Shown here: piece after piece, positions 4,992 through 25,730 of the stretch
Numbering within the stretch: the stretch's first letter is position 1
Layout of the letters: each line of letters begins with the position of its first letter
Source of the DNA: Candidatus Baltobacteraceae bacterium
Lineage (GTDB): Bacteria > Vulcanimicrobiota > Vulcanimicrobiia > Vulcanimicrobiales > Vulcanimicrobiaceae
NCBI GenBank assembly: GCA_036488875.1
Contig: DASXGW010000004.1
Coordinates: 434,001 to 498,000, forward strand
Direction: 5' to 3'
Length of the DNA stretch: 64,000 nucleotides
Notes under the pieces: model-generated
Database searches by the model: none
What the model saw: only the letters and a program-made list of their open reading frames with translations
What the model was told of the DNA's origin: nothing
Program-made: the position numbers and the translations under genes

Positions 4992-6308
4992 CTACGCCGC
5001 CGGGCGGCCGCGCTTGTGACAGGCCCGATGCACCAGGCGGAGGTTGTCGAGTTCGGTGCGACCGCCATCCCGGTGGGGAATCGGATGATGGTCGATCTCG
5101 ACTTCGTCCGGGTCGACGATGCCTCCGCACTCTCCGCAACGCCATTTGTCGCGCCCGCACACTTCTGCAGTCACCTCGGCGGAAGCAAAGCGACGATCGT
5201 CGAGTTGCACGCCGAAAGTCTCCGGTGGCAGCTTCTGACGCCAAAACAGGTAGTTCGCGAGTAAAGCCTCCTTGCTCGTACTCCGTGCCCGTCCGTCGCG
5301 CCCTTCACGCGCGGTCGGATCGTCGAGAACGCGCGCCGCATCGATCGCCGCCGATGCAACAGCCTTTTCGGAGATCTTCAGTCCCTGGCGCGTGGCATCG
5401 TGTATGAGCATTGAAATCGCGGCCATGTCCAGACGTCGAATCTTCTTGACTTTGGGCAACCAGCGGCGCACGGTGTCGAAGAACGTTGTCGTCAACTCGA
5501 GAATCTTCCGGAACCTGGCTGCGATCTCGCCATCTGGGTCGAAGTCAACGTGCTCATGATACATGCGGTCAAGATCTCGTGCACCGGTTCGGGGGTAGTC
5601 GCTCTCCGCACGTTCACGCGCAAGGAAAATGAGCAACAACTGCGCACACAATTGACGGTCCGCGACATACGGATCGCGCAGATCGTCGTCGTCCAGGCGT
5701 TCGAGTCCGCGCTTGTCGGTTAGCGCGAATAGCCGCACCGCAGGGTGCTTCGGCCATTTGCCGGCGAGCCGGTTTACGAACGGTCCGATCCCGCCGGGGA
5801 ACGCGTCCCGTTTCTCTTGAGCCGTTAGGGCCGTTCCTTGGTTCAAGCGGATGAAGATATCACGTACTTCGTCAGACGTCGCCTCGGACACGTAGTACGC
5901 GACAAGTTCGGAGTTGTCAAACTGCTCACGCATCTCTGGAGACAGCTCGTGATAAAAGCAGTTCGCCCAAGGTGCTTCGACCTTCACGAGACTGCGTGGC
6001 AGTTGCAGATCGGCGACCGGCAGCAGCTTAAAGTCGCCCTTACGATAGCCGCTGAGCGCGAGCGTCCTTTGGTAGCCATCGATGATTTCGAAGCTGATTG
6101 TGCGGTCGCCGTCGAGCGACGCGCCTTCGCGCTTGCGCAAGTAAAACGGTGGTATAGCGTATCCGCGAAAGATGGAGTCCACGAACCACTTCTGTTGTTT
6201 CGCGTTCCATTTTTCGCCGCGTTGGTACTCTTCGTTTGGACTCACGCTTGCGTTTGCGTGAGCTTGCACGAGTCGATCGACAGTCATGTCGTTGCGAGTG
6301 ATGATCAT
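4992..6308 (-). CDS. DUF262 (ParB/Srx-like) protein with C-terminal HNH nuclease domain
   Basis: A 438-residue protein. Residues about 10-110 are a DUF262 domain: EIIDGYQRTLAL at about 74-85 is the conserved DGxQR motif of the ParB/Srx-like NTPase fold. The C-terminal 60 residues are an HNH endonuclease: WRCGECGG, then EVEIDHHPIPHRDGG and LRLVHRACH. The layout matches GmrS/GmrD-type type IV restriction enzymes and related DUF262 nucleases that cut modified phage DNA. The ATG at 6308 has a GGAGAG site; the frame is open further upstream, but that extension is not protein-like. A stand-alone gene in the defence island. Confidence 0.85.
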   Translation of the reverse strand: MIITRNDMTVDRLVQAHANASVSPNEEYQRGEKWNAKQQKWFVDSIFRGYAIPPFYLRKREGASLDGDRTISFEIIDGYQRTLALSGYRKGDFKLLPVADLQLPRSLVKVEAPWANCFYHELSPEMREQFDNSELVAYYVSEATSDEVRDIFIRLNQGTALTAQEKRDAFPGGIGPFVNRLAGKWPKHPAVRLFALTDKRGLERLDDDDLRDPYVADRQLCAQLLLIFLARERAESDYPRTGARDLDRMYHEHVDFDPDGEIAARFRKILELTTTFFDTVRRWLPKVKKIRRLDMAAISMLIHDATRQGLKISEKAVASAAIDAARVLDDPTAREGRDGRARSTSKEALLANYLFWRQKLPPETFGVQLDDRRFASAEVTAEVCGRDKWRCGECGGIVDPDEVEIDHHPIPHRDGGRTELDNLRLVHRACHKRGRPAA

Positions 6309-7324
6309 GGTTGCTCTCCGGTTGGGTTGCGCCGCCGATGCGCGGTCGACGGCGCGGTGGGGCTCGAGCAGGGCATCACTATAGCATGCGCGCGCACGCG
6401 GCGGAAGGGGGTCGACGCGCGAATTGTGGTCGGCGCGCGCGTGCGTTTTTTGCACGATGCCATATGAGTTTTTCATCAATCGAAATAACGTGATTGCAGT
6501 CTGCGTTTTGGCAGAAATATTGCTATCAAAACGATTGGATCTATTTAGTAGATTCTTCAACGCACACGATTCAAAGTCGGGGCAAAGGCGCATTTAGCCG
6601 ATTCTTCCACGATTGCAGAACGCGGCAGCTTGGAAGCGGATTGGTACTCCGTCTTATTTGCATAAACTAGGAAGCTTGGATTTAAAAATACGCGCCATTT
6701 AAAAAAGTCGGATAAAAATATCCACCATTTTTTTGCTTTATCGAAATAAAGCCAACGAAAAAGCCTGGAAGAACCATTCCCGAGGAAAACTTTCCGGTTT
6801 GAAATCGATTCTGGTACCTATATTTAGAGAAGAACCCCGGCAATCCGGACCCGTCCCGAGTCGGGGAAAACCCCCGGTGGCCGCTCAGCCGGGGCAGGGC
6901 GCGGTCAGCGGTGGGGCGCGTTCCTTTGCCTCGCATTCCGAATCGGACGGGCCACGGCGACGTAGTGGGTTGGGTCGGCGCTTTGCGCGAGGCGGGAGGC
7001 GACATGAACGGCGGGGGACACGAATGATAAGGCAGGCCCTCGACTCGAGCGAAGGGGCTCCCTAGCTAGCGATAACATTTATTTCTCGCCACTTCATTCC
7101 AGCCCTGAAGGGGCGCCCCGACACCTTGTTACTATCCAGCTTTGAGATAACGCCTCACCTGCCGCGCGGGCTTCACCTTCAGGGGAGGATAGAAGATCGC
7201 CCCGGCCAAGACGAGCGCCGGCCGATAACGTAACCTAGTGCCGCACATCGTCCTGTGTTAGCCCCGGATTAGCACGGGGCCTTAGCGGCATGGTTTCAAC
7301 TTTCTCTCACTTCAAGAGGCGGCA
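6309..7324. other. About 1 kb without a convincing gene; promoter region, AT-rich block, hairpin
   Basis: Between the divergent DUF262 gene and the DUF6602 gene. 6470-6830 is AT-rich with runs of A and T. 6850-7060 turns abruptly GC-rich; ORFs there on both strands look like noise. A perfect stem-loop GCCCCG-N8-CGGGGC lies at 7261-7280 with no T-tract, so it may be a transcribed structured leader rather than a classical terminator. A GAGGCGG ribosome site precedes 7325. I see no transposase or tRNA. Confidence 0.5.
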
Positions 7325-8026
7325 ATGCCTAACAGATTTCTCTTACAAAGGCTCGCCGGTATTCAGGCAGCTCTCGTAGGCGCACATCAGGCGAGCTCCG
7401 GAATGTCTTCAAACACGACAGGGGCCGAGCGGCAAGAATTCATAGAGTCGTTCTTGAGGAATGTGCTGCCCACCATATACAGATTTGGAACGGGGGATGC
7501 AACGGATCTAAATGGCGCGATTAGCGGTCAGCTCGACGTAGTCGTGGAATCTCCATTCGCGCCGACGTTGCCGAACGTTGGGCTCGGGTCCACCCGTCTG
7601 TACCTAGCGGAGTCTATAGCTGCGGTTATTGAGGTAAAGTCCGATATCAGTAAACAATGGACGCAAGCCATAAAAACAGCTGCAAAGCTTGCTCCTCTCC
7701 GCCGAACCTATACCTCATCGATTAGAATGACTGACTCAAGCATCAGACTCGGCGCTGGTCCTGTGACAACAACGGACGCAATTCCGCTTTTTGTCGCTGC
7801 ATTCACGGGCTGGACGACCATGGCTTCTTTAACGAGTGCACTAAGTGGAGCAGCGGATATATCCGGGATCTTGATCATCGATGCGGGCTTATTTGCTAGC
7901 TCTTCCGCGTTTGGAGGAGTGACGGCAACGGGACCGTCGGCCTTGTGGGAGCTTATCTGCGCTCTGGATGCGGCCGTGAATAAAATTCAAATGGCATCAA
8001 TAGAGCCAAAAGCGTATCTTAAGTAA
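7325..8026 (+). CDS. DUF6602-type PD-(D/E)XK nuclease-like protein
   Basis: A 233-residue protein. Residues about 34-105 match the DUF6602 pattern: GAERQEFIESFLRNVLP, then ISGQLDVVVE with D71, then AESIAAVIEVKSDI with E103-x-K105. D71 and the E-V-K pair are the likely metal-binding residues of a PD-(D/E)XK nuclease fold. The C-terminal half is less conserved and Ala/Ser-rich. DUF6602 proteins are usually found in defence islands as presumed nucleases; the exact activity is not known. No membrane segment. Probably transcribed with the EVE-domain gene that begins 160 bp downstream. Confidence 0.75.
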   Translation: MPNRFLLQRLAGIQAALVGAHQASSGMSSNTTGAERQEFIESFLRNVLPTIYRFGTGDATDLNGAISGQLDVVVESPFAPTLPNVGLGSTRLYLAESIAAVIEVKSDISKQWTQAIKTAAKLAPLRRTYTSSIRMTDSSIRLGAGPVTTTDAIPLFVAAFTGWTTMASLTSALSGAADISGILIIDAGLFASSSAFGGVTATGPSALWELICALDAAVNKIQMASIEPKAYLK

Positions 8027-8185
8027 CGCCGAGAAAACGCGTCGCAGGATCCGCCAGGACGCCGAGTACGGAACTTCTGAATCGATAAAGGGTTAAAAGA
8101 GAATCAATTCGCTAACTTTGGTACAGCAGGTTTTATGGGGCCGCGTCGTTGGCGCGTTTCTGCGAATCTTATTGGAGCCGTAGAT

Positions 8186-8752
8186 ATGGATTGGGTCTTT
8201 CAGTGTAAGCCGAGCATCTATGATTTGCGAAAGTTACTAGCAAATGGTATATCGAGTGATTGGTGGCGGATAAACCAGCACGCAAAACTCATGACTCCTG
8301 GCGACCGAGTTTACTTTTGGGAAAGTGGAGACCACGCCGCATTACTCGCCATGGGGCAAATCGTCTCCGAGGTCGATCCTGAGAATCCCTCTGGTAGATT
8401 CGGTTCGGTCGACATCATCTACGAGTCGAAGCTTGAGCCTCCCATTCCCCGACAGGAGGTTCTACAGGATCCCATTTTAAGTCAGTTTCGAGTGTTTTCT
8501 CGCATGGAGGGCACAAATTTTCCGATTCGAGATAGTCGCGTGATCGAAGCGAAAGGGACTTGTGACCGGGACGCGTTCCGTATGGCGATCGGTCAGCTCG
8601 TGGATTACCGCCGATTTATGAAGGCGCCGCCATGTGCGATTCTGCTCCCCGAGAAGCCAAATGACGACCTACTAAGCCTCGCAAAGGCGGAGGGGATCGG
8701 CATCATTTGGCCATCTGACGAGGGCTTTGAAAAGACCTTACACTTATGGTAG
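8186..8752 (+). CDS. EVE-domain protein fused to the C-terminal half of a nuclease-like domain
   Basis: 188 residues. The first about 115 are an EVE (PUA/YTH-like) domain: MDWVFQCKPSIYDL, WWRINQHAKLMTPGDRVYFW and ALLAMGQIVSEV. EVE domains read modified bases. The remainder reads RVIEAKG (E121-x-K123) and AIGQLVDYRRFM, then AILLPEKP, matching the second half of PD-(D/E)XK nucleases of the 'GQLxDYxRF' kind. The preceding half with the metal-binding Asp is not visible, so the nuclease may be trimmed. The ATG at 8186 is chosen for its GGAG site 8 nt upstream. Likely a type IV-like modified-DNA reader and nuclease. Confidence 0.75.
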   Translation: MDWVFQCKPSIYDLRKLLANGISSDWWRINQHAKLMTPGDRVYFWESGDHAALLAMGQIVSEVDPENPSGRFGSVDIIYESKLEPPIPRQEVLQDPILSQFRVFSRMEGTNFPIRDSRVIEAKGTCDRDAFRMAIGQLVDYRRFMKAPPCAILLPEKPNDDLLSLAKAEGIGIIWPSDEGFEKTLHLW

Positions 8753-9254: not shown

Positions 9255-9761
9255 ATGCCGCGGCAGCGACGGCGTTCCGCAGAGACATATCGAAGCGCTT
9301 CTGACCTCCCTCGTGAGGGCGCAGATAGTCTGATGAAAAGCCTGGTGGTTGGACTTCCACGAGATCTAAGGAGTGACGTGCTTCGTGCCTATGAAGCGCA
9401 ACTTAGTTCACTCGCGTATACCCTGACCAACAAGGATCTTAGTCGCAGAACCCAGCGACAAGTTGAAGAACTTAGTATTGTTATCGCGCTTGCAGCATTT
9501 AATCGTTTAATTATGCTCCAGTTTCGCGGCTTTGCCGAGTTCGGAAGGACCCTAATTCGCAGACACAACGTTTTGAGTGTGGCAGTAGGGCGCGAGCAGG
9601 TGGAGCGGCATACGTTTGATGGACTTCATGACACTGCCGTGGCTTTTCAGCAACGCCTCATGCTTTGTAAAATTCCAAAGTACATGCTCGAGTACCCGGA
9701 TGTCCCTTCGCTGTTAGAGATGTACGACGCGCGTCTCGGCCGTACACCACGGGCCACCTGA
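9255..9761 (+). CDS. Unknown 168-aa helical protein, first gene of a four-gene cassette
   Basis: Not recognised. It starts with a basic stretch (MPRQRRR) and is predicted by eye to be largely alpha-helical, with a more hydrophobic helix around ELSIVIALAAFNRLIML (residues about 72-90). No catalytic motif or signal peptide is seen. A GGGGG-type ribosome site lies just upstream of the ATG after a 250-bp gene-free stretch, so this is probably the promoter-proximal gene. It stops exactly one base before the ATG of the next gene, so the two are translationally coupled. Confidence 0.75.
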   Translation: MPRQRRRSAETYRSASDLPREGADSLMKSLVVGLPRDLRSDVLRAYEAQLSSLAYTLTNKDLSRRTQRQVEELSIVIALAAFNRLIMLQFRGFAEFGRTLIRRHNVLSVAVGREQVERHTFDGLHDTAVAFQQRLMLCKIPKYMLEYPDVPSLLEMYDARLGRTPRAT

Positions 9762-10511
9762 ATGCCAGCTAGTCATGCTTTTGTTCCCCTTGATGAGATA
9801 AAGTCTGCCGTTAACGCGTTTCTGTCTGAATATGGCACTCGAATTGCGCAACACACTGACAAAATAGGCACCTACGCCGAAATCGCGGCGTATCATAGTG
9901 TGATAGAATTCTATCGCAAGTCGCACTTTAGGTGCGGTGTCGAGAACGTTAAGCAAGGCTTATTTAGGTACAAATTGACGCCTACGGGTAACCCGAGTAA
10001 TTTTTCGTACTTTTCAGTGAGAAAAAGTGGACGAGTGTATTCCGTGCTAACTAACGTGTCTGTGGAGTCCGCGCACGCAGCTCGACACTATTTCTCGGCG
10101 GACATAGTCGTTGCTGACGATCAGAGCGTCCAAATGCAACGAGGTCCAGACAACCTTGAAGTAGGAATTCGTCGCTCAGTGTTCTTCGTGCCTAATGAAT
10201 CGCTGCGTACGTTCCTCGAAATAAAGAACATGTCTCCATTCCCTGAACTGCTGTTTTCGTTTTCTGGACTGCTGTTCGAGATGATGCCCGATATTTTCTT
10301 TAAGAAGGTAGCATCGCGGAAAAGGATTCACATAGCTCCGTCGCTTGTCTGCTCATTTGCAGGATCTGGACATGCCAACTATATTCGGAGAACACTCCTG
10401 CAACGCTGGCACATAAATATCTTCACGGATTTTCTAAGCAAACGCGCTCTTGAGGGCGAAGATCTTCGAAAAATTGCAGATCGAAGACTTAAACCAAGGT
10501 CGTTGGGTTGA
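9762..10511 (+). CDS. Unknown 249-aa protein with a PD-(D/E)XK-like nuclease signature
   Basis: No named family recognised. Residues 112-119 read SADIVVAD and residues 151-157 read FLEIKNM, so D114 and E153-x-K155 have the spacing and beta-strand context of a PD-(D/E)XK nuclease core. E40 in TYAEIAAYHSVIEFY could be the upstream acidic residue. After the core, PFPELLFSFSGLLFEM resembles the helix that follows in such folds. Codons are AT-richer than in flanking core genes. It directly abuts the previous gene. A nuclease effector is my inference. Confidence 0.7.
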   Translation: MPASHAFVPLDEIKSAVNAFLSEYGTRIAQHTDKIGTYAEIAAYHSVIEFYRKSHFRCGVENVKQGLFRYKLTPTGNPSNFSYFSVRKSGRVYSVLTNVSVESAHAARHYFSADIVVADDQSVQMQRGPDNLEVGIRRSVFFVPNESLRTFLEIKNMSPFPELLFSFSGLLFEMMPDIFFKKVASRKRIHIAPSLVCSFAGSGHANYIRRTLLQRWHINIFTDFLSKRALEGEDLRKIADRRLKPRSLG

Positions 10512-10610
10512 GCATGCTTGGCCATGCGCCATTACTTGCCCAAGGCTCGATTTGGGCGCTTTCTCAAAAGCGACCCTCAAGAACCGGTTCTCTAACGAAG
10601 CGATAAGGCG

Positions 10611-11795
10611 ATGGGAGAAATCCGTGACTTAATGAACGACGCCGTCGCTTTAGTACGTAAGGCGCTGCCTGTCGCGGTCGTGGACGCGCCCGGGGAAAAC
10701 GGGATCTTGTGGTGCAGTCCTAGCGCGAGTGTCGTTCTAGAGGAGCAGCAGTCGAGACTTCTTGTTCAAGCTCTGAGTCCGCAACTCGACGCAGCCATCG
10801 GATCTCCGGCGCCATTCTCTGCGAGCGATCTCCCAGCCGAGGTGGCATCGGCTATTATTTTGCGGCTTGCAGGCGAATGGCAAAAGCCACCGACCGTGCA
10901 AGCAGTATCAAAGCAGTCAGCTCGCGGAACCTGCGGCGCGGATACTAGGGCTGGGCTCGATACAGGGATTCTCGTTACACAAAAGCGGGTTGAGGAGACC
11001 CACTACTGGTTACGAGACCAAGTAGGTCCGCTCATATCACCGGATGACGACCCAGCCGCGGCTATGGTTCAGCGCTATATCTTTTATCTTTCTACGCTCG
11101 TCGATACCGCGCAATCGTCAACGGCGTGCCTTGCGGTTCATAGACTTGATCGCGGCGTGACAATGATCCAGCGAACGTTGGCAGAGTATGCAGTTAGAGC
11201 TCGATTTGCGGTAAGCCATCCTGACCACACTCTCTGGCGGCTAACTATTGCTGAAGCTCTGGATTTCGAGAAGCGCCTAAAAGATGGCGGCGCGGATTCA
11301 AGGTCCATCGCGGCAGCGGAGGCTGCTAGGATTCAGACCGAAGCTCGTTTTGCCGCCGTCGGTGAGCTTGCCAAGAAAGCGCGCTGGAAAGATCTGCAGT
11401 TTAAGACGATGTTCGAATACGTAGCCAGCGCAGATCAACATGCGAGCCTATACCGCTGGCCGAGCGCTTTTATCCATGCAGACCCAGCCGGGATGCGGGA
11501 ACTCTTTCAGTGGGATGCTCATGGTTCCACGGTGGTCGTTCCGGATCTAAGCGACGAGGACATAAATACTGATCTTGTCGACGCCACGCTCATGCTTGTC
11601 GAATTTCTCCGCGCCTTTCGAGACGCTTTTCCTGGCCTTCACCAAAGCGAAGAGGCAGCATCGCGAATATCCGAACTGGACCGCGAGAATAGGGTGCACA
11701 CCCTGCGGTTCCCCAAGGATCGGCCGGCGATATACTTGGAGCAGGTTCGATCGGAACTCGGCCTAGCCCAATCATCTCCCCACAACAATCTGTAA
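10611..11795 (+). CDS. DUF5677-like protein of unknown function
   Basis: A 394-residue protein. The central to C-terminal part has a helical pattern that reminds me of DUF5677: VTMIQRTLAEYAVRARF and a later FEYVASADQHASLYRW followed by PSAFIHADPAGM. DUF5677 proteins are uncharacterised but recur near defence genes. The N-terminal 130 residues are of unknown fold. No membrane segment or nuclease motif is seen. The gene starts 100 bp after the previous one and is followed 11 bp later by the membrane-anchored gene. Confidence 0.65.
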   Translation: MGEIRDLMNDAVALVRKALPVAVVDAPGENGILWCSPSASVVLEEQQSRLLVQALSPQLDAAIGSPAPFSASDLPAEVASAIILRLAGEWQKPPTVQAVSKQSARGTCGADTRAGLDTGILVTQKRVEETHYWLRDQVGPLISPDDDPAAAMVQRYIFYLSTLVDTAQSSTACLAVHRLDRGVTMIQRTLAEYAVRARFAVSHPDHTLWRLTIAEALDFEKRLKDGGADSRSIAAAEAARIQTEARFAAVGELAKKARWKDLQFKTMFEYVASADQHASLYRWPSAFIHADPAGMRELFQWDAHGSTVVVPDLSDEDINTDLVDATLMLVEFLRAFRDAFPGLHQSEEAASRISELDRENRVHTLRFPKDRPAIYLEQVRSELGLAQSSPHNNL

Positions 11796-11806
11796 GGAGA
11801 GGGCTT

Positions 11807-12367
11807 TTGACCTCGATTAATACAATTTTGGCTCTAGTCGGGAGCGCAGCGGTAGGCGCAATCGTCACGCTACTTGTTCAGCGTAGCGGAGACTATTTTA
11901 CTCGGCTCGGTAAGGAGCTCGCGATCCTGCGACGGGCTCGGGCGAGCCTTCAAATGCTCCTTAGCTCCGTTGAGAACACTAGTTACCTCTTTCCAGATGA
12001 CGGTTATGATAGAGCCGCCTTTGATCGAACGTTCGCGCTATTCTTGGGCGAGGACGTTGCAGCCATTGTAGACCGTTTTGACGAAAAATTTTATTGGAGG
12101 TTGGGGGATATCGAGCAGCACATGGCCTTGGTGAATCGCCTCGTCGGGCGATACGAACGCTTTAGGGACAGATACGTGGGGAATGCCCAGCAACTTAACG
12201 GTCTTATTGAAGAGCTCCGCCGACTGCACGGAGATTGCCGAAAGGAACTCTATGAGATCCTAGCGTTTGTCGAAGCCTTGCCAAAACGTGCACGTTACGC
12301 GCCGTACCGGGCCTACGGCAGCGGATCGGCCGAAGAGTGGCTCGAAGATGACGAGCCCGTTGAATAA
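11807..12367 (+). CDS. Membrane-anchored coiled-coil protein, last gene of the cassette
   Basis: A 186-residue protein starting at TTG, with AAGGAGAG a few bases upstream. Residues about 5-25 (NTILALVGSAAVGAIVTLLV) form a single N-terminal membrane helix. The rest is charged and helical (LGKELAILRRARASLQMLL, then DIEQHMALVNRLVGRYERF), probably a cytoplasmic coiled coil, and the end is acidic. No enzyme motif. A membrane anchor coupled to DUF5677-like and nuclease-like partners suggests a membrane-associated defence complex, but that is inference. Confidence 0.7.
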   Translation: MTSINTILALVGSAAVGAIVTLLVQRSGDYFTRLGKELAILRRARASLQMLLSSVENTSYLFPDDGYDRAAFDRTFALFLGEDVAAIVDRFDEKFYWRLGDIEQHMALVNRLVGRYERFRDRYVGNAQQLNGLIEELRRLHGDCRKELYEILAFVEALPKRARYAPYRAYGSGSAEEWLEDDEPVE

Positions 12368-12706: not shown

Positions 12707-14290
12707 ATGCCACGCACAAGAGCGACGGCCAAGAGCTCGACGGCGAAGACAAATGGCAAGACCGGAAATGGCGGTGACCTGGGGTTCGAAGCGACACTTT
12801 GGGCGGCGGCGGATACCCTCCGCGGTTCGATGGATGCGTCCGAGTACAAACACCCCGTTCTCGGCCTGATCTTTCTCAAGTATATTTCCGACGCATTTGA
12901 AGAACTGCACGGCCAACTCGCCGACGACCGGGAGTCGGATCCCGAAGACCGCGACGAGTACATGGCGCGCAATGTCTTCTGGGTGCCGCCGGCGGCGCGA
13001 TGGTCGCAGATTGCGGCGCAGGCTAAGTCACCACGGATCGGCGAGATCGTCGACAAGGCGATGATTGCGATTGAACATGAGAACCAGCGACTGCGCGGCG
13101 TCTTGCCGAAGGAATACGCAAAGCCGTCTCTCGGCTCGACGCGCCTAGGTCAGCTCGTCGACCTCGTGAACGGCATTGGCTTGGGGGATGCTGAGGCGCG
13201 CAAGCACGACGTTATTGGGCGTGTGTACGAATACTTCCTCGGGCGATTCGCTAACGCGGAAGGGAAGGCCGGCGGCGAGTTTTACACACCGCGTTCTGTC
13301 GTTCGACTCTTGGTCGAGATGATTGAGCCATATAAAGGACGCGTCTTCGACCCGTGCGCTGGTTCTGGTGGCATGTTTGTGCAGTCGGAAGAGTTCGTGC
13401 TGGCGCACGGTGGGAAGATCGGCGATGTATCGATCTACGGCCAAGAATCGAATCATACGACGTGGCGCCTGGCAATGATGAACCTCGCGATTCGCGGGAT
13501 CGAGGCTGACATCACCTGGAACGAAGGCGGCTCGTTCCTTCAGGATGCCTATCCGGATCTAAAGGCTGACTTCATCTTGGCCAATCCGCCTTTCAACGAC
13601 AGTGAATGGGGCGGCGTCGGTTTGCGCAATGACCCGCGCTGGCGCTACGGCATCCCGCCTGCCGGGAACTCGAACTACGCTTGGATTCAGCATTTCGTCT
13701 ATCATTTGACGCCGACCGGCGTCGCCGCATTCGTGATGGCGAACGGCTCAATGTCCTCGAACCAAGGTGGCGAGGGTGAGATCCGTAGGAATATGATTGA
13801 GTCGGAAAACGGCGGCCTCATCGACTGTTTGATTGCGCTACCGGGCCAGCTCTTCTACACGACCCAGATTCCAGTTTGCGTATGGATCCTTGCGCGCAAC
13901 CGCCGAAACCACAAGTTCCGGGACCGCGGTGACGAGATTCTGTTTATTGACGCCCGCAAGATGGGTGAAATGACGGATCGGACGCACCGTGCCCTTCGGA
14001 ACGAGGATGTCGCGAAGATCGCCCAGGCCTACCACGCTTGGCGCGGGAAGGCCGGTGGTTACGAGGATGTTCCGGGTCTCTGCAAAGCAGCATCCCTCGA
14101 CGAGATTCGCAAACACGGTCACGTGCTCACGCCGGGCCGCTACATTGGAACCGAGGAGCTCGAAGGCGATGCGGAGCCATTTGCTGATAAGATGCGGCGA
14201 CTGACGTCCCTTCTTCGTGAGCAACGGACCGAAGGCGAGCGGCTTGACGACTCTATTATCGCCGCACTCGGGAACATCGGTTTTGACTGA
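12707..14290 (+). CDS. hsdM: Type I restriction-modification DNA methyltransferase subunit
   Basis: A 527-residue HsdM. It begins with a Lys/Thr-rich tail, then the N-terminal helical domain ([20 protein letters not shown]). The methyltransferase core carries FDPCAGSGG (motif I, SAM binding, residues 214-222) and LANPPF (motif IV, N6-adenine catalysis, near 292-297), preceded by [16 protein letters not shown]. It methylates host target sites in complex with HsdS and supplies the core for restriction with HsdR. Length and order are normal. First gene of hsdM-hsdS-hsdR, overlapping hsdS. Confidence 0.97.
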
Positions 14291-15581
14291 GCAACGAGTT
14301 GCGTTTGAAGAGCTAGTCGCCAATCAAATCTTGCAAATTGGCGACGGTTATCGCGCAAAAAATAGCGAACTTAACGGCAATGGTTTGCCATTCATGCGCG
14401 CGGCGCTCGTTCAGGATTCGGGAATTAATTTGGCTGGTGCCGAAAGGTTCTCGAGTAAACGCACGGCGGCCCTATTGCCTAAGTGCTCACGGCCAGACGA
14501 CGTCGTAATCACGACTAAGGGAAATAGTACTGGAAGAACAGCGGTAATTCGACCTGGCGATCCGCCAGCCGTGTACTCTCCGCACCTTTCGTTTTGGCGC
14601 GTCCTCGACCGGCGAGTCATCGATCCCGGATTCCTTCGTCAATGGGCCCGCTCAACCCAATGCCAAGAGCAGGTTCGCGCGATGATGTCGTCAACCGACA
14701 TGGCGCCATATCTAAGTCTCCGCGATCAGCTTAAGCTTTGCATCGCACTCCCGCCTCTGTCGCGGCAACGTGCAAGCGCCGCGCTTCTAGGCGCTCTCGA
14801 TGACAAGATCGACTTGAACCGCAAGATGAGCGCGACACTCGAGTCAGTAGCGCTGGCGTTGTTCAAGTCGTGGTTCGTTGACTTCGATCCCGTTCTCGCA
14901 AAAAGCGAAGGCGGCGACCCTGGCCTTCCGATAGAGATCGCCGCGATCTTCCCCGATTCGTTCGAGGAGTCGGAGTTAGGAAGAATTCCGAAAGGCTGGA
15001 GCGCGGCGCCCTTATCAGAGATTCTGGAAGAGAGTATCGAACGAATTGGGAACCAGGCTGCCCCGGAATATTCCTCTACGAATGAGGGTCTTCAGCTAAG
15101 ATCGGTCCGGTTTAAGAAGACACTTTCCCGATCGGCGACTAGAAACAAACTGATTCGGCGAGGCTACTTCGTTTTCGGCCTGAGTCGAAAGGTGCTAAAT
15201 TTTGGCATAATGCGCGATGAACTCGGTAGCGTAAGCCCGGCCTACAAGGTCTTCCGCGTCGTCAACCCCTCCGTTCCACCCGCTATGCTTGAAAGACTTA
15301 TGCGGGCGAGCCCCAGTTATTACTATCGTGCGATCTCTGCGAGCTCGCGAGAGGGTCAGGCGGTCTCAACGCAAGCACTCGGAGTGCTTAAGATAGTGCA
15401 GCCGCCGCAGGCCATCCAAGATTGGTTCTTTAGCATCGAAATGGCCTTAGCGCAGCGCATGAAAGCAGCAGAAAGAGAATCACATACTCTGTCCTCGATC
15501 CGAAACGCGCTTTTGCCAAAGCTAATCTCTTGTGAGATCTGTGAAGCAGATGCGGAGCGCGTTGTGGAGCGGTCCACTTAG
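14283..15581 (+). CDS. hsdS: Type I restriction-modification specificity subunit
   Basis: About 432 residues with two target-recognition domains separated by the conserved helices [20 protein letters not shown] and [11 protein letters not shown], and the closing [13 protein letters not shown]. HsdS chooses the DNA target for both methylation and cleavage. The start is taken as TTG 14283, which overlaps the hsdM stop by 8 nt and gives [12 protein letters not shown] directly before the first recognition domain; a GTG at 14217 is also open. The recognition domains are the variable, transferable part, so specificity cannot be read. Confidence 0.93.
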
Positions 15582-18500
15582 ATGGCAGGGTACCTCGACG
15601 AAGATGCGATCGAGCAATACGCGATCGACCTCTTCAAGGGCGTCGGCTATGCCTATCAACATGGCTCGATTATTGCACCCGGCGGCGCCGCCGAGGAACG
15701 CGCATCGTTCAAAGATGTAGTACTTGTTGGGCGATTGCGCACCGCACTGCGCCGCTTGAATCCGGCGATTCCGGTTTCTGCGCTCGATGAGGCGCTGCGC
15801 AAGCTTATAGTCCACGAGACGACTGATCTCGTGCTCAACAATCAGCGTTTCCACAAGTTCATGATCGAAGGTGTGGGTGTCGAGTATAGTGATGGCGCGG
15901 GTGGTGTTCGCTATGCTAAAGCACGGATCATCGACTTCGAGAAACCCGACGGGAACGACTGGCTCGCAGTCAATCAATTCACCGTCAAAGAGGATGCTGG
16001 TGAACGCCGCCCTGACCTGCTGGTCTTTATTAACGGTCTGCCGGTCGCGCTTTTCGAGTTCAAGAACCCGATGGATGAGAAAGCCACAATTCTCAGTGCC
16101 TTTCGTCAGACACAGACCTACAAGCGCGATTTACCCGGCCTGCTCGCGTACAACGAGCTATTGATTGTCGCGGACGGAACGCAGGCGAAGGTGGGTTCAC
16201 TCACGGCGGATTGGGAGCGCTTTAGCACGTGGAAACGTGAAGACGGTGCCAAAGTTCCAGTTGAGATCGAACCGCTCGTCAACGAAGTCTTCCAGAAACG
16301 GCGGCTGCTCGATATCCTGCGACACTTCATCCTGTACGAAGCAACGATGCCGCCGAACAAGATCCTAGCTGCCTATCACCAGTATTATGCCGTAAACAAA
16401 GCGGTCGAGCGGACCATCACGGCCACTGCTGACGGTGGCGATCGCCGAATTGGCGTGTTTTGGCATACGCAGGGCAGCGGCAAGAGTCTCTCAATGACTT
16501 TCTACGCCTCGAAGGTCGCCCAGCAGCCACAGCTTGCCAATCCCACACTGGTGGTTCTGACCGACCGCAACGATCTCGATGATCAACTATTTGGTCAGTT
16601 CATGCGCTGTACAGAGTTCTTGCGCCAAGCGCCCGAACAAGCCGAAGGGCGCGAGGATCTGCGCAGGGCTCTTACGGTCGCCTCTGGGCACATCGTTTTC
16701 ACCACGATTCAGAAGTTTTTTCCAGAAGGTGACGGCAGCCGCCATCCGGCGGTTACGGATCGTCGAAACGTCATCGTGATCGCGGATGAAGCGCATCGTA
16801 GCCAGTATGGATTCGAAGGGAAGGTGGATGAGGAGTCCGGCCAAACAGTCTACGGATTCGCTCGACACCTGCGCGACGCATTGCCGAAAGCGTCATTCAT
16901 TGGCTTCACAGGAACCCCAGTCGAGCTGTCCGACCGCAATACGCGCAGTGTCTTTGGGGATTATATCGACGTGTATGATGTCCGTCGCGCCGTAGAGGAC
17001 GGCGCCACGGTGCCGATATACTATGAGGCTCGCATCGTCAAAGTCGAGCTCGATCCTGTGAAGGTCTCGTACCTCGACGAAGAGTTCGAGGAGATTACCG
17101 AGGGGCAAGAGGACGACGAGAAACGCCGCAGCGCGAGCCGCTGGTCACAGATAGAAGCGCTTGTCGGAACGGACGCCCGCATTGACGAAATCGCCCGTGA
17201 CCTTGTCGAACACTTTGAGCAGCGACAGAAGGGCTTCGAGTTCGAGGGCAAAGCGATGATCGTCTGTATGAGCAGGCGCATTTGTGCGCGGCTCTACCAG
17301 GCGATCGTCGCGCGACGACCTAAGTGGCACGACGATGCCGACGAGCGGGGAACGATTAAGGTCGTCATCACGGGAAGCGCGGCGGACGATCTGCTCTTGC
17401 AGCCACACATCCGCAACAAACCGCGACGCCGCACGATCGAGAAGCGTTTCAAACACGCGAGCGATTCGCTCAAACTCGTGATCGTGCGCGACATGTGGCT
17501 GACCGGCTTCGATGTGCCTTCACTGCACACAATGTACGTCGACAAGTCGATGAAAGGGCATAGCCTTGTCCAAGCGATCGCGCGCGTGAATCGGGTGTTC
17601 AAGACTAAGGCTGGCGGTCTAGTCGTCGACTATTTTGGCATCGCCGACGACCTCAAGCGGGCGTTGGCGACCTACATCGACTCAGGTGGTACAGGCAATC
17701 CGGTGTTGGACGAGCGCGACGCCGTCGCAGTGTTGCAGCGCGATTACGAAGTCGTGCGCGGTATGTTCCACGGTTTTCCTTACCAGGCATATATCGACGC
17801 CGATACCGCACAGAAGATGCTCGGACTGACGAATGGTGCAGACCACATACTCGGTCTGGACGACGGGAAGAAACGGTATCTTCGAGCGTGCGCCAGCCTT
17901 GCGAAGGCATTTTCGCTAGCTTCGACCGCAGACTACGCTCGAGGGATCGCGGACGAGGTCGCGTTCTTCAAGGGTGTGCGATCGACGATCGTTAAGATCA
18001 CGCCGCTTAGCGGACAAAGCCTTGAGGAGATTGACCTCGCTTTGCAGCAGCTCGTCTCTGAGGCAGTCGGTTCACGTGGGATCGTCGACGTCCTTGAGCA
18101 GGCCGGGGTCAAGCGGCCAGACATCGCGGTGTTCTCCGACGACTTTCTGGCGGAACTCGCCGGTATAGAGCAGCGTAACCTCGCACGCGAAATGCTTGAG
18201 CGGCTTTTACGCGACGAGATTAAGGTTCGGTCGAAGCAGAACGCTGTTCAGGCGCGTAGGTTTTCAGACATGCTTTCTGAGGCAATTGCCAAGTATGAGA
18301 ACCGATCAGTCACTACGATGCAGCTGATTGAGCATCTCATCGCGTTTGCGAAAGAATTGAGAGACGAGCCAAAGCGCGCTGACGCAATGGGGCTCTCAGA
18401 TGACGAGCTGTCATTCTACGATGCCCTGGCCCAAAGTAAGAACGCGTTAGAGGTCCTTGGGGACACTCGACTACGCGCGATCGCGCGCGACCTTGTTAAG

Positions 18501-18674
18501 AGCGTCCGTGAAAGCGCCACCATCGATTGGAATCTCCGAGAAAGCGTTCGCGCCGGTATCCGATTGAAGATCAAGAAGTTGCTCCGCAAGCACGGCTACC
18601 CGCCAGACGCCACCGAAGAGGCCACAGAACAGGTGCTAGAACAGGCAGAGTTGCTCTGCCAAGTCGCTGCCTAA
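15582..18674 (+). CDS. hsdR: Type I restriction endonuclease subunit
   Basis: 1030 residues, full length for the family. The N-terminal nuclease has RRPDLLVF (D145) and ALFEFKNP (E159-x-K161), the PD-(D/E)XK site. The motor has HTQGSGKS (Walker A, 295-302), ADEAH (401-405) and FIGFTGTP (motif III). It translocates DNA using ATP and cuts at a distance from unmethylated sites bound by HsdS. The ATG begins right after the hsdS stop codon. No disruption is visible, so the system should be active. Confidence 0.97.
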   Translation: MAGYLDEDAIEQYAIDLFKGVGYAYQHGSIIAPGGAAEERASFKDVVLVGRLRTALRRLNPAIPVSALDEALRKLIVHETTDLVLNNQRFHKFMIEGVGVEYSDGAGGVRYAKARIIDFEKPDGNDWLAVNQFTVKEDAGERRPDLLVFINGLPVALFEFKNPMDEKATILSAFRQTQTYKRDLPGLLAYNELLIVADGTQAKVGSLTADWERFSTWKREDGAKVPVEIEPLVNEVFQKRRLLDILRHFILYEATMPPNKILAAYHQYYAVNKAVERTITATADGGDRRIGVFWHTQGSGKSLSMTFYASKVAQQPQLANPTLVVLTDRNDLDDQLFGQFMRCTEFLRQAPEQAEGREDLRRALTVASGHIVFTTIQKFFPEGDGSRHPAVTDRRNVIVIADEAHRSQYGFEGKVDEESGQTVYGFARHLRDALPKASFIGFTGTPVELSDRNTRSVFGDYIDVYDVRRAVEDGATVPIYYEARIVKVELDPVKVSYLDEEFEEITEGQEDDEKRRSASRWSQIEALVGTDARIDEIARDLVEHFEQRQKGFEFEGKAMIVCMSRRICARLYQAIVARRPKWHDDADERGTIKVVITGSAADDLLLQPHIRNKPRRRTIEKRFKHASDSLKLVIVRDMWLTGFDVPSLHTMYVDKSMKGHSLVQAIARVNRVFKTKAGGLVVDYFGIADDLKRALATYIDSGGTGNPVLDERDAVAVLQRDYEVVRGMFHGFPYQAYIDADTAQKMLGLTNGADHILGLDDGKKRYLRACASLAKAFSLASTADYARGIADEVAFFKGVRSTIVKITPLSGQSLEEIDLALQQLVSEAVGSRGIVDVLEQAGVKRPDIAVFSDDFLAELAGIEQRNLAREMLERLLRDEIKVRSKQNAVQARRFSDMLSEAIAKYENRSVTTMQLIEHLIAFAKELRDEPKRADAMGLSDDELSFYDALAQSKNALEVLGDTRLRAIARDLVKSVRESATIDWNLRESVRAGIRLKIKKLLRKHGYPPDATEEATEQVLEQAELLCQVAA

Positions 18675-19376: not shown

Positions 19377-19610
19377 GCGTTGCCTGTCTCGATGGGGTTC
19401 ACTCGCTTGGGCTCATTTACCAGAAAGCGGCGAGGCAGGCCAACATAGCCCGGGACGACTGAGACTTTCGAACTATCAAAAAAGGCGATTGCGTTCTCAC
19501 TGGTATAAATGCTAGGAGAAGGCGCGGGCAAGGGCGGAAGGAAGGCACCACGTCGAACCCGTGACTCGCGATCGAATTCCATCAAAACGGTGCCGAGTTG
19601 TGGGACGTCG

Positions 19611-20945
19611 ATGCGGCGCCTGACTAGTTCTTACCTTGTTGCACTTAATAGGCCTGCTTCAATGACATACTGGTTTGCGGCTTGGATGGACGAGCGCGGT
19701 ATTTCGAGCCACGACGAATTTCAGGCCGCGTTCGACGGGAAAACGACCGTAGAGCAGTTACGCGCCGCCGCGCAACAATCGAGCCCGGTCGCAGAGTTTG
19801 GCCAGGCCCCAGATGCGAAGGCTCGACGTTCGACGTGGCTCTCGGCCGGTAAAGGAATTGACTTGACCGGTACCCTCGGTTGCTACCATTACGAGTGCCT
19901 GCGCAAAGAGGCTGATGAGTTGCTGGGCAAGTCATGGCACTATTTCGACGGCGTGGTCTTGCCAGATGTCGCGCATAGCCTAATCGAGGGCGCGCATCAT
20001 GACCAAGACGGGTTGGAGGAGCGTCTTGCTTCCACTGCAGATACAATTTTCTATTTACGTGCGACTTCGGCCATGAGCCTCGTGCGCTTCGAATCTCGAC
20101 TTCCGGCTTGTAGACAGCATTGGCGTGATCATGCGAAAGAGGCGCGAATAGATCAATCGATTGCTAATGTCAAAAATGTAATTACGACGCTGGCGCGGGA
20201 GGCAAGGATCGAGTTTCGTGCCGAAAACATTTCCGGGCACGCTCATTTAGAATTTGCCCTGCACCACCGCTTCTTCGAACACGTTGTTGCCGGGCACCTT
20301 TGCGCCGAGGCAGATGGTTGTCCTATACCAGTTAGCGAGTCCGAACAGAGGAGGGCGGCTGCAAAAAGTGTTGTAATACGGTTTATCGCAAATCTTAGTG
20401 CAGATGCGCTATCTGCGCGAAAGAGTGACCTCCCTCTTGGTGCGGCGATTCGATTCTACGGACAACTCTTGAAGAATCCGGTACAAAACCGTATCGAGGA
20501 CGTTGCGTTTGCGCTCGAGCTCCCCGTTTTAAGTGATGTCCCGCTGCGCGATCTGGTCGAATTCAGGATGTCAAATCAGGATTTGTTCCAGCGGTTCCAA
20601 AGCGCTATTAGAAAGGCAGCGCGCGAACGGATTAATAGCGCTGGCTCCAACAATCCGAGCAAAATCGCACAGGAAATCCTTGAGGATGTTATCGATGTGG
20701 AAGTCCGAGCGATCGGTGATAGGATGGATTCTTATGTCCGTAAGCGGGACAACGCACTCGCACTTGGTGCTGGAGTAACCTTGGCGGGTCTGACGCTTGG
20801 GCTTCTAACGCCCGTGGCTGGATTGCTGGCCCCTGTTGGCGTTGGATTGGGTGCTAAGGCGGTTAAGGACTTCAACGATGCAAAAGAGGATGTCTCCCTA
20901 TCGGATATGTATTTTCTCTGGAAGGCGGCGGAGCACTTTCACTAA
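19611..20945 (+). CDS. Unknown 444-aa protein with a hydrophobic C-terminal segment
   Basis: Not recognised. The ATG at 19611 is chosen because the open frame upstream of it reads as low-quality basic sequence. The body is helical and charged. Residues about 381-418 (starting NALALGAGVTLAGLTLGLLT) form a long Gly/Leu-rich hydrophobic stretch, long enough for a membrane hairpin, followed by a short hydrophilic tail ending WKAAEHFH. A large cytoplasmic sensor-like part with a C-terminal membrane hairpin is a common layout for abortive-infection effectors, but there is no motif to prove it. Its AT-richer codons match the island. Confidence 0.75.
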   Translation: MRRLTSSYLVALNRPASMTYWFAAWMDERGISSHDEFQAAFDGKTTVEQLRAAAQQSSPVAEFGQAPDAKARRSTWLSAGKGIDLTGTLGCYHYECLRKEADELLGKSWHYFDGVVLPDVAHSLIEGAHHDQDGLEERLASTADTIFYLRATSAMSLVRFESRLPACRQHWRDHAKEARIDQSIANVKNVITTLAREARIEFRAENISGHAHLEFALHHRFFEHVVAGHLCAEADGCPIPVSESEQRRAAAKSVVIRFIANLSADALSARKSDLPLGAAIRFYGQLLKNPVQNRIEDVAFALELPVLSDVPLRDLVEFRMSNQDLFQRFQSAIRKAARERINSAGSNNPSKIAQEILEDVIDVEVRAIGDRMDSYVRKRDNALALGAGVTLAGLTLGLLTPVAGLLAPVGVGLGAKAVKDFNDAKEDVSLSDMYFLWKAAEHFH

Positions 20946-24704: not shown

Positions 24705-25730
24705 CTATTCCTCGGTCGCTAGCGTCCAGACCCGCTTCAGCGGGATATCCGCCTTCACGTCCTCAGGAAGATTTTCGTAGCAGGTTGTTAGAGCTTCGAT
24801 GAGATCTGCATCGTTCCACAGTCGAATACGAAAATAGTCGTACTGCGTTTCACCCGGAATCGATGAGCGAAAGCCACCAAAAGAAACGAGGAGGCCGTTG
24901 TCGGCCTTAAACTTGCCAAGAATGCCGTCAAGTTCACGAAAGACCTTGACGTCTATTGGTATATCGCCGGACTTGACTTGAACGCAGAGCCGCGGAGAAT
25001 CTAATCCGTGCGGCCCCCGGCCGGCTAGGATGTCGACTCCACGATCGGCGCCAGGTGGTGACCTGTGAGTTTTGTACCCTTGCGCGATGAGGACGGCTTC
25101 TACGAGCCTTGCCAGTCCATGGCCGGCAAATTTGGTGCGTATATGTCGTCGGATCGAGTCAAGGCCGAACTCTTCGATGTCGAGCGTTTCCGACTCGGGT
25201 TGCTGGCCATCTTCCTTTGTCGTCGAATCCGCACCCTGCGGCGTGCCGGACCCTGCAACCCTGCTCATCATGGCGCGAAACCGCTGCTCCGCATCGTTAC
25301 GGGATATTCTTGCAACCGTCATCGTGGAGCCCAGAGAGAACAGCAGATCCTGATCAATTTGCGCCCTGGGTACCTCGCGCGCCCAGTTCACGGCGTGCGT
25401 GTGCTCGGTTCCAGGCGGAAAGCTAGGTTCATATTTATATGGGCCCGTCACGTTTCCGAATTGAACTGCTGGACGGCTCTTGAGCGGCATCGCGATAACG
25501 TCGCCTATCGCGATTTCCTTTGCGAAACGCCAGCACTGCCCCGTCCAGTTCGCTAGCGTGCCGGCCGATTCGGCGGAGTAGTGCTCGGAGAAAGACCGGC
25601 GCATCTCATCTCGATCGCGGAACGTTCCCAGATCCGGCATTTCGGTCCAGCCAATCGTCGCGACATTGCGTTCGAGAGCCAATGCCTCGCGTTCACCGTT
25701 ACGGCCAGCCCGGACGAGCCAAATAGCCAT
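24705..25730 (-). CDS. Mrr-family type IV restriction endonuclease with N-terminal PUA-like domain
   Basis: 341 residues. The C-terminal Mrr catalytic domain has RLVEAVLIAQGYKTHRSPPG, then GADRGVDILAG (D233), then CVQVKSG (Q251-x-K253), the Mrr variant of the PD-(D/E)XK site. The N-terminal 120 residues (WLVRAGRNGEREALAL, ATIGWTEMPDL, IGDVIAMPL) look like the PUA/EVE-type domain found in Mrr-like 'restriction system' proteins. Such enzymes cut modified or foreign DNA without a partner methylase. Divergent from the HNH gene at 25872 across about 140 bp. Confidence 0.88.
   Translation of the reverse strand: MAIWLVRAGRNGEREALALERNVATIGWTEMPDLGTFRDRDEMRRSFSEHYSAESAGTLANWTGQCWRFAKEIAIGDVIAMPLKSRPAVQFGNVTGPYKYEPSFPPGTEHTHAVNWAREVPRAQIDQDLLFSLGSTMTVARISRNDAEQRFRAMMSRVAGSGTPQGADSTTKEDGQQPESETLDIEEFGLDSIRRHIRTKFAGHGLARLVEAVLIAQGYKTHRSPPGADRGVDILAGRGPHGLDSPRLCVQVKSGDIPIDVKVFRELDGILGKFKADNGLLVSFGGFRSSIPGETQYDYFRIRLWNDADLIEALTTCYENLPEDVKADIPLKRVWTLATEE

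Follow-up and report, generated by a model that had tools for sequence, protein, structure and literature searches.

What do the four genes immediately upstream of a type I restriction-modification operon represent: a single multi-gene anti-phage system, or smaller units gathered in a defence island? The window analysed here is a stretch of 64,000 nucleotides (G000:C4:434001-498000) of a 3.7-Mb draft genome, and the quartet, p1 to p4, comprises four plus-strand open reading frames at 9255-12367, upstream of hsdM. The first, p1 (9255-9761; 168 aa, ATG start), is of no known family; p2 (9762-10511; 249 aa, ATG start) is a candidate PD-(D/E)XK-like nuclease; p3 (10611-11795; 394 aa, ATG start) combines an N-terminal region of unknown kind with a DUF5677 domain; and p4 (11807-12367; 186 aa, TTG start) carries one N-terminal hydrophobic helix. 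Downstream, on the same strand, lie hsdM, hsdS and hsdR (12707-18674). We recovered all four frames at the coordinates and lengths given in the original prediction, and their arrangement was also as described there: the start codon of p2 follows the stop codon of p1 immediately (TGA then ATG, 0 bp), and 11 bp separate p3 from p4. The remaining gaps are 99 bp (p2-p3) and 339 bp (p4-hsdM). A good ribosome site, AAGGAG, precedes the TTG of p4; no clear ribosome site was seen before p2. Between the p1-p2 and p3-p4 pairs we saw no convincing promoter or terminator, so one transcript could cover all four genes.

All four reading frames are intact. Both p2 and p3 are longer than any open reading frame in 200 shuffles of the region (longest frame: median 120 aa, maximum 233 aa), and the lengths of p1 and p4 each fall inside the range of the shuffle maxima. 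The reality of p4 as a gene is backed by a relative with 44% identity together with its ribosome site, and that of p1 only by position and strand. We conclude that the four genes are real and mostly unrecognisable.

The surroundings of the quartet agree with the defence setting beside a type I locus that had been proposed for it. Family matches identify HTH_17, GmrSD-N/HNH, DUF6602 (with NucC-like similarity), EVE, HsdMSR, WYL regulator, DUF2130 and Mrr-type/PDC-S02 neighbours, with the DUF6602/NucC-like, EVE, GmrSD-HNH, HsdMSR and Mrr-type genes flanking the quartet; judged by these matches alone, the locus is a defence island. The DUF6602 protein (7325-8752) has PADLOC PD_DExK and NucC-like matches (E 9e-17 to 2e-10) and is followed 108 bp on by the EVE-domain protein, and the two could form a pair of nuclease and modified-base reader. 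On the minus strand, a GmrSD-N domain fused to HNH (4992-6593) has NsnA as its best PADLOC match (E 8e-26), and an Mrr-type protein (24705-25730) gives a full-length match to PDC-S02, a PADLOC candidate (E 7e-131). LeoBC is weakly matched (E 0.008) by a 478-aa protein downstream of hsdR (19509-20945). From about 2 to 21.5 kb the GC content is 48-63%, with its minimum over p1-p2, against 61% in the whole window and 65-67% just outside on the left; these values are consistent with an acquired island and do not prove one. The flanks of the one same-genus genome are too divergent from those of the window for an empty-site comparison.

Pfam profiles matched hsdM and hsdR (N6_Mtase, HsdM_N, HSDR_N, SWI2_SNF2 and T1RH-like_C); hsdS, which had no Pfam match at E 0.01, was assigned by position and by similarity among hsd loci. 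The location of the quartet, directly upstream of hsdM and on the same strand, would suit accessory genes of this operon that act as modulators of HsdMSR. However, 339 bp intervene before hsdM, and the genes found upstream of HsdM orthologues at 74-87% identity are unrelated. We inspected such orthologues in 10 other genomes, along with five partial or more distant ones (49-85%), and found that none of these 15 other hsdM loci, some on contigs that end within a few kb, carries p1, p2, p3 or p4; the genes upstream of hsdM differ among the related genomes as well as from the quartet. An accessory role is very unlikely, and we conclude that this type I operon does not have the quartet as a constant neighbour. 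Across L078-L092, hsdMSR is conserved and upstream gene content varies between related genomes. Variable content upstream of a conserved hsdMSR suggests a cargo site.

We then asked what the individual proteins are. The only quartet member with a known domain is p3: residues 170-300 match DUF5677 (PF18928; E 1.6e-9) with a score of 38.5 bits against a gathering cut-off of 27.1, which bears out the DUF5677-like character originally predicted. An alignment of 20 sequences (p3 and 19 relatives) revealed two conserved motifs, R188-x3-E192 and S285-x3-H289, in which E192 and H289 are invariant and R188 and S285 are conserved at 90% or more. Judged by its motifs, DUF5677 is probably not a HEPN family: although H289 is invariant, no conserved arginine stands 5-7 residues ahead of it (R282 varies), and the R-x4-6-H motif is absent from the alignment as a conserved feature. 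The AF2 model built from the 20 sequences is all-helical with a confident core (pLDDT 74.9) and had no PDB or BFVD match at E 0.001. Within the literature searched in full text, no function for DUF5677 is described; the family is mentioned in a study that, by its title, applies machine learning to Salmonella protein domains.

Protein and DUF5677 profile searches combined found p3 relatives in 18 other genomes among the 149 of the phylum. None of those whose surroundings were inspected has p1, p2 or p4 next to it; a p4-like neighbour accompanies none of the 19 DUF5677 genes examined, and these genes have no neighbour common to them. The closest p3 relative (26% identity) is the larger of two tandem, overlapping DUF5677 genes in G005 (L030 5440-7324), on a contig that also has an AbiEii-type gene. 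A small hydrophobic neighbour of another DUF5677 gene (L036) was rejected as a p4 counterpart, because it is not similar to p4 and its start resembles a signal peptide.

Similarly, p4 was followed to its relatives. The protein has a single hydrophobic helix, at its N terminus (residues 6-24, Kyte-Doolittle 2.38), in line with the membrane anchor that had been predicted for the 186-aa product. One clear relative exists in the phylum, the 44%-identical sequence G076:C6:1509298-1509792 (L077:8302-8799); it is a pseudogene, broken by an in-frame TAG, and has no p3 or DUF5677 neighbour. Around it (L077 7029-12179) there is an open reading frame and then, in another frame, an R-x4-H stretch (RNPTMH). 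About 1.5 kb downstream of the pseudogene begins a SIR2-like gene, which is followed by a membrane protein; a short p4 match inside a SIR2 protein (L077:11223-11354) was treated as chance.

The other two genes were orphans in all searches. No family match for p1 was found in Pfam, PADLOC, PHROG or NCBIfam, and no relative in the 149 phylum genomes (where it was queried joined to p4), IMG/VR or plasmids. Likewise, p2 has no relative in the phylum genomes, IMG/VR, plasmids or phages, and no profile match in Pfam, PADLOC, PHROGs or NCBIfam at E 1, so none to the PD-(D/E)XK superfamily; such a match is diagnostic for that superfamily and not strictly defining. In plasmids and IMG/VR, where only close relatives were within reach, none was found for any of the four proteins. 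Phages and GTDB genomes were searched with p2, at a sensitivity suited to close relatives, and GTDB species genomes gave a single, spurious match: it spans 44 residues (36% identity) of an unrelated metallophosphoesterase-like frame in an Elusimicrobia genome (L002), and its E-value holds only in relation to candidate stretches. Scanning IMG/VR for a degenerate motif (E-I-K then PFPE) returned four loci, none of them related to p2. The residues predicted for a nuclease centre are present as described: D114 lies in a hydrophobic stretch and is followed by E153-x-K155, in plausible order and spacing. A motif of this type also occurs in 7 of 130 control frames (about 5%) and in 2% of shuffles. 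The single-sequence model of p2, made with no alignment, reached a pLDDT of 39.5, and its Foldseek matches are not meaningful. From this one motif, we infer that p2 is a candidate PD-(D/E)XK-like nuclease.

The lack of relatives for p1 and p2 in every search, the decayed state of the p4 relative and the absence of a common neighbour among other DUF5677 genes would all fit a pile-up of unrelated orphan genes in the island, some of them decaying or without a defence role. The intact frames, the tight spacing within pairs and the ribosome site of p4 argue against this reading, which we regard as rather unlikely, yet the most serious of the alternatives.

We also considered whether the genes form one new four-gene anti-phage system, with p2 as nuclease effector, p3 as sensor or regulator, p4 as membrane anchor and p1 as adaptor. 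In favour of this proposal are the shared strand, the short gaps and the defence neighbours, and because searches beyond the phylum reached close relatives only, a wider family may have escaped. Within the phylum, p3 relatives occur without the other genes, the p4 relative occurs without p3, and hsdM orthologues occur without the set. Failure to co-occur had been named beforehand as a refutation of a single system; the neighbourhood check found the quartet nowhere else, neither in the 149 phylum genomes nor at the 15 other hsdM loci, a result that is strong within the phylum only and elsewhere sensitive to close relatives. With adjacency and setting as its only positive evidence, a single four-gene system is not supported, and we consider it improbable.

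We favour the reading that the quartet is defence-island cargo made up of two independent two-gene modules, p1-p2 and p3-p4, because the spacing of the genes, their composition and the fact that p3 and p4 relatives occur apart from each other point to it; we hold this tentatively, at somewhat less than an even chance. The 99 bp between the pairs compare with 0 and 11 bp within them, and GC content is unlike between the pairs (p1 52.9%, p2 46.7%, p3 56.0%, p4 53.7%; hsdM 59.0%, window 61.0%), although contrasts among genes this short are weak evidence. DUF5677 relatives stand without p1, p2 and p4, and the p4 relative without p3. As for the modules being cargo, defence genes lie on both sides, and other genes occupy the position upstream of hsdM orthologues. 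Gene positions, DUF5677 membership, the hydrophobic helix and the absence of the quartet from related hsd loci are the observations on which this reading builds. In module A, p2 would act as a PD-(D/E)XK-type nuclease whose translation is coupled right behind p1, and p1 may serve as its partner or restrainer. In module B, the helical DUF5677 protein p3 would work with p4, which may be held at the inner membrane by its one N-terminal helix. The modules probably have an anti-phage role, as their association with neighbouring defence genes suggests. Against the two-module reading, pairing within the modules is as unproven as the quartet itself; neither p1 or p2 relatives nor a second p3-p4 pair were found in our searches, the p2 motif recurs in control frames and shuffles, and a common transcript is possible.

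A long shot is that the orphan PD-(D/E)XK-like nuclease pair, the DUF5677 protein and its membrane-anchored partner act together as a rare and as yet undescribed defence system; if true, it would give DUF5677 its first mechanistic role. Should either of the two modules protect against phage, DUF5677 would gain a first function, or the known defences of this sparsely sampled phylum would grow by an orphan nuclease pair. At present, the quartet is a lead and not a system.

Compared with known families and systems, p3 resembles DUF5677 proteins in its match above the curated cut-off and in the R-x3-E and S-x3-H motifs common to the 19 aligned relatives; unlike them, it has an extra N-terminal region and 394 aa rather than roughly 250-350 aa. 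Similarly, p2 shares with PD-(D/E)XK nucleases an aspartate within a hydrophobic segment and an E-x-K, the two being plausibly ordered and spaced, and differs in its lack of a library profile match and in its low-confidence model. The quartet departs from type I restriction-modification loci with neighbouring or embedded defence genes in lying upstream of hsdM rather than between hsd genes and in being absent at related hsd loci; what it has in common with them is that genes of unknown kind accompany hsdMSR within a defence island.
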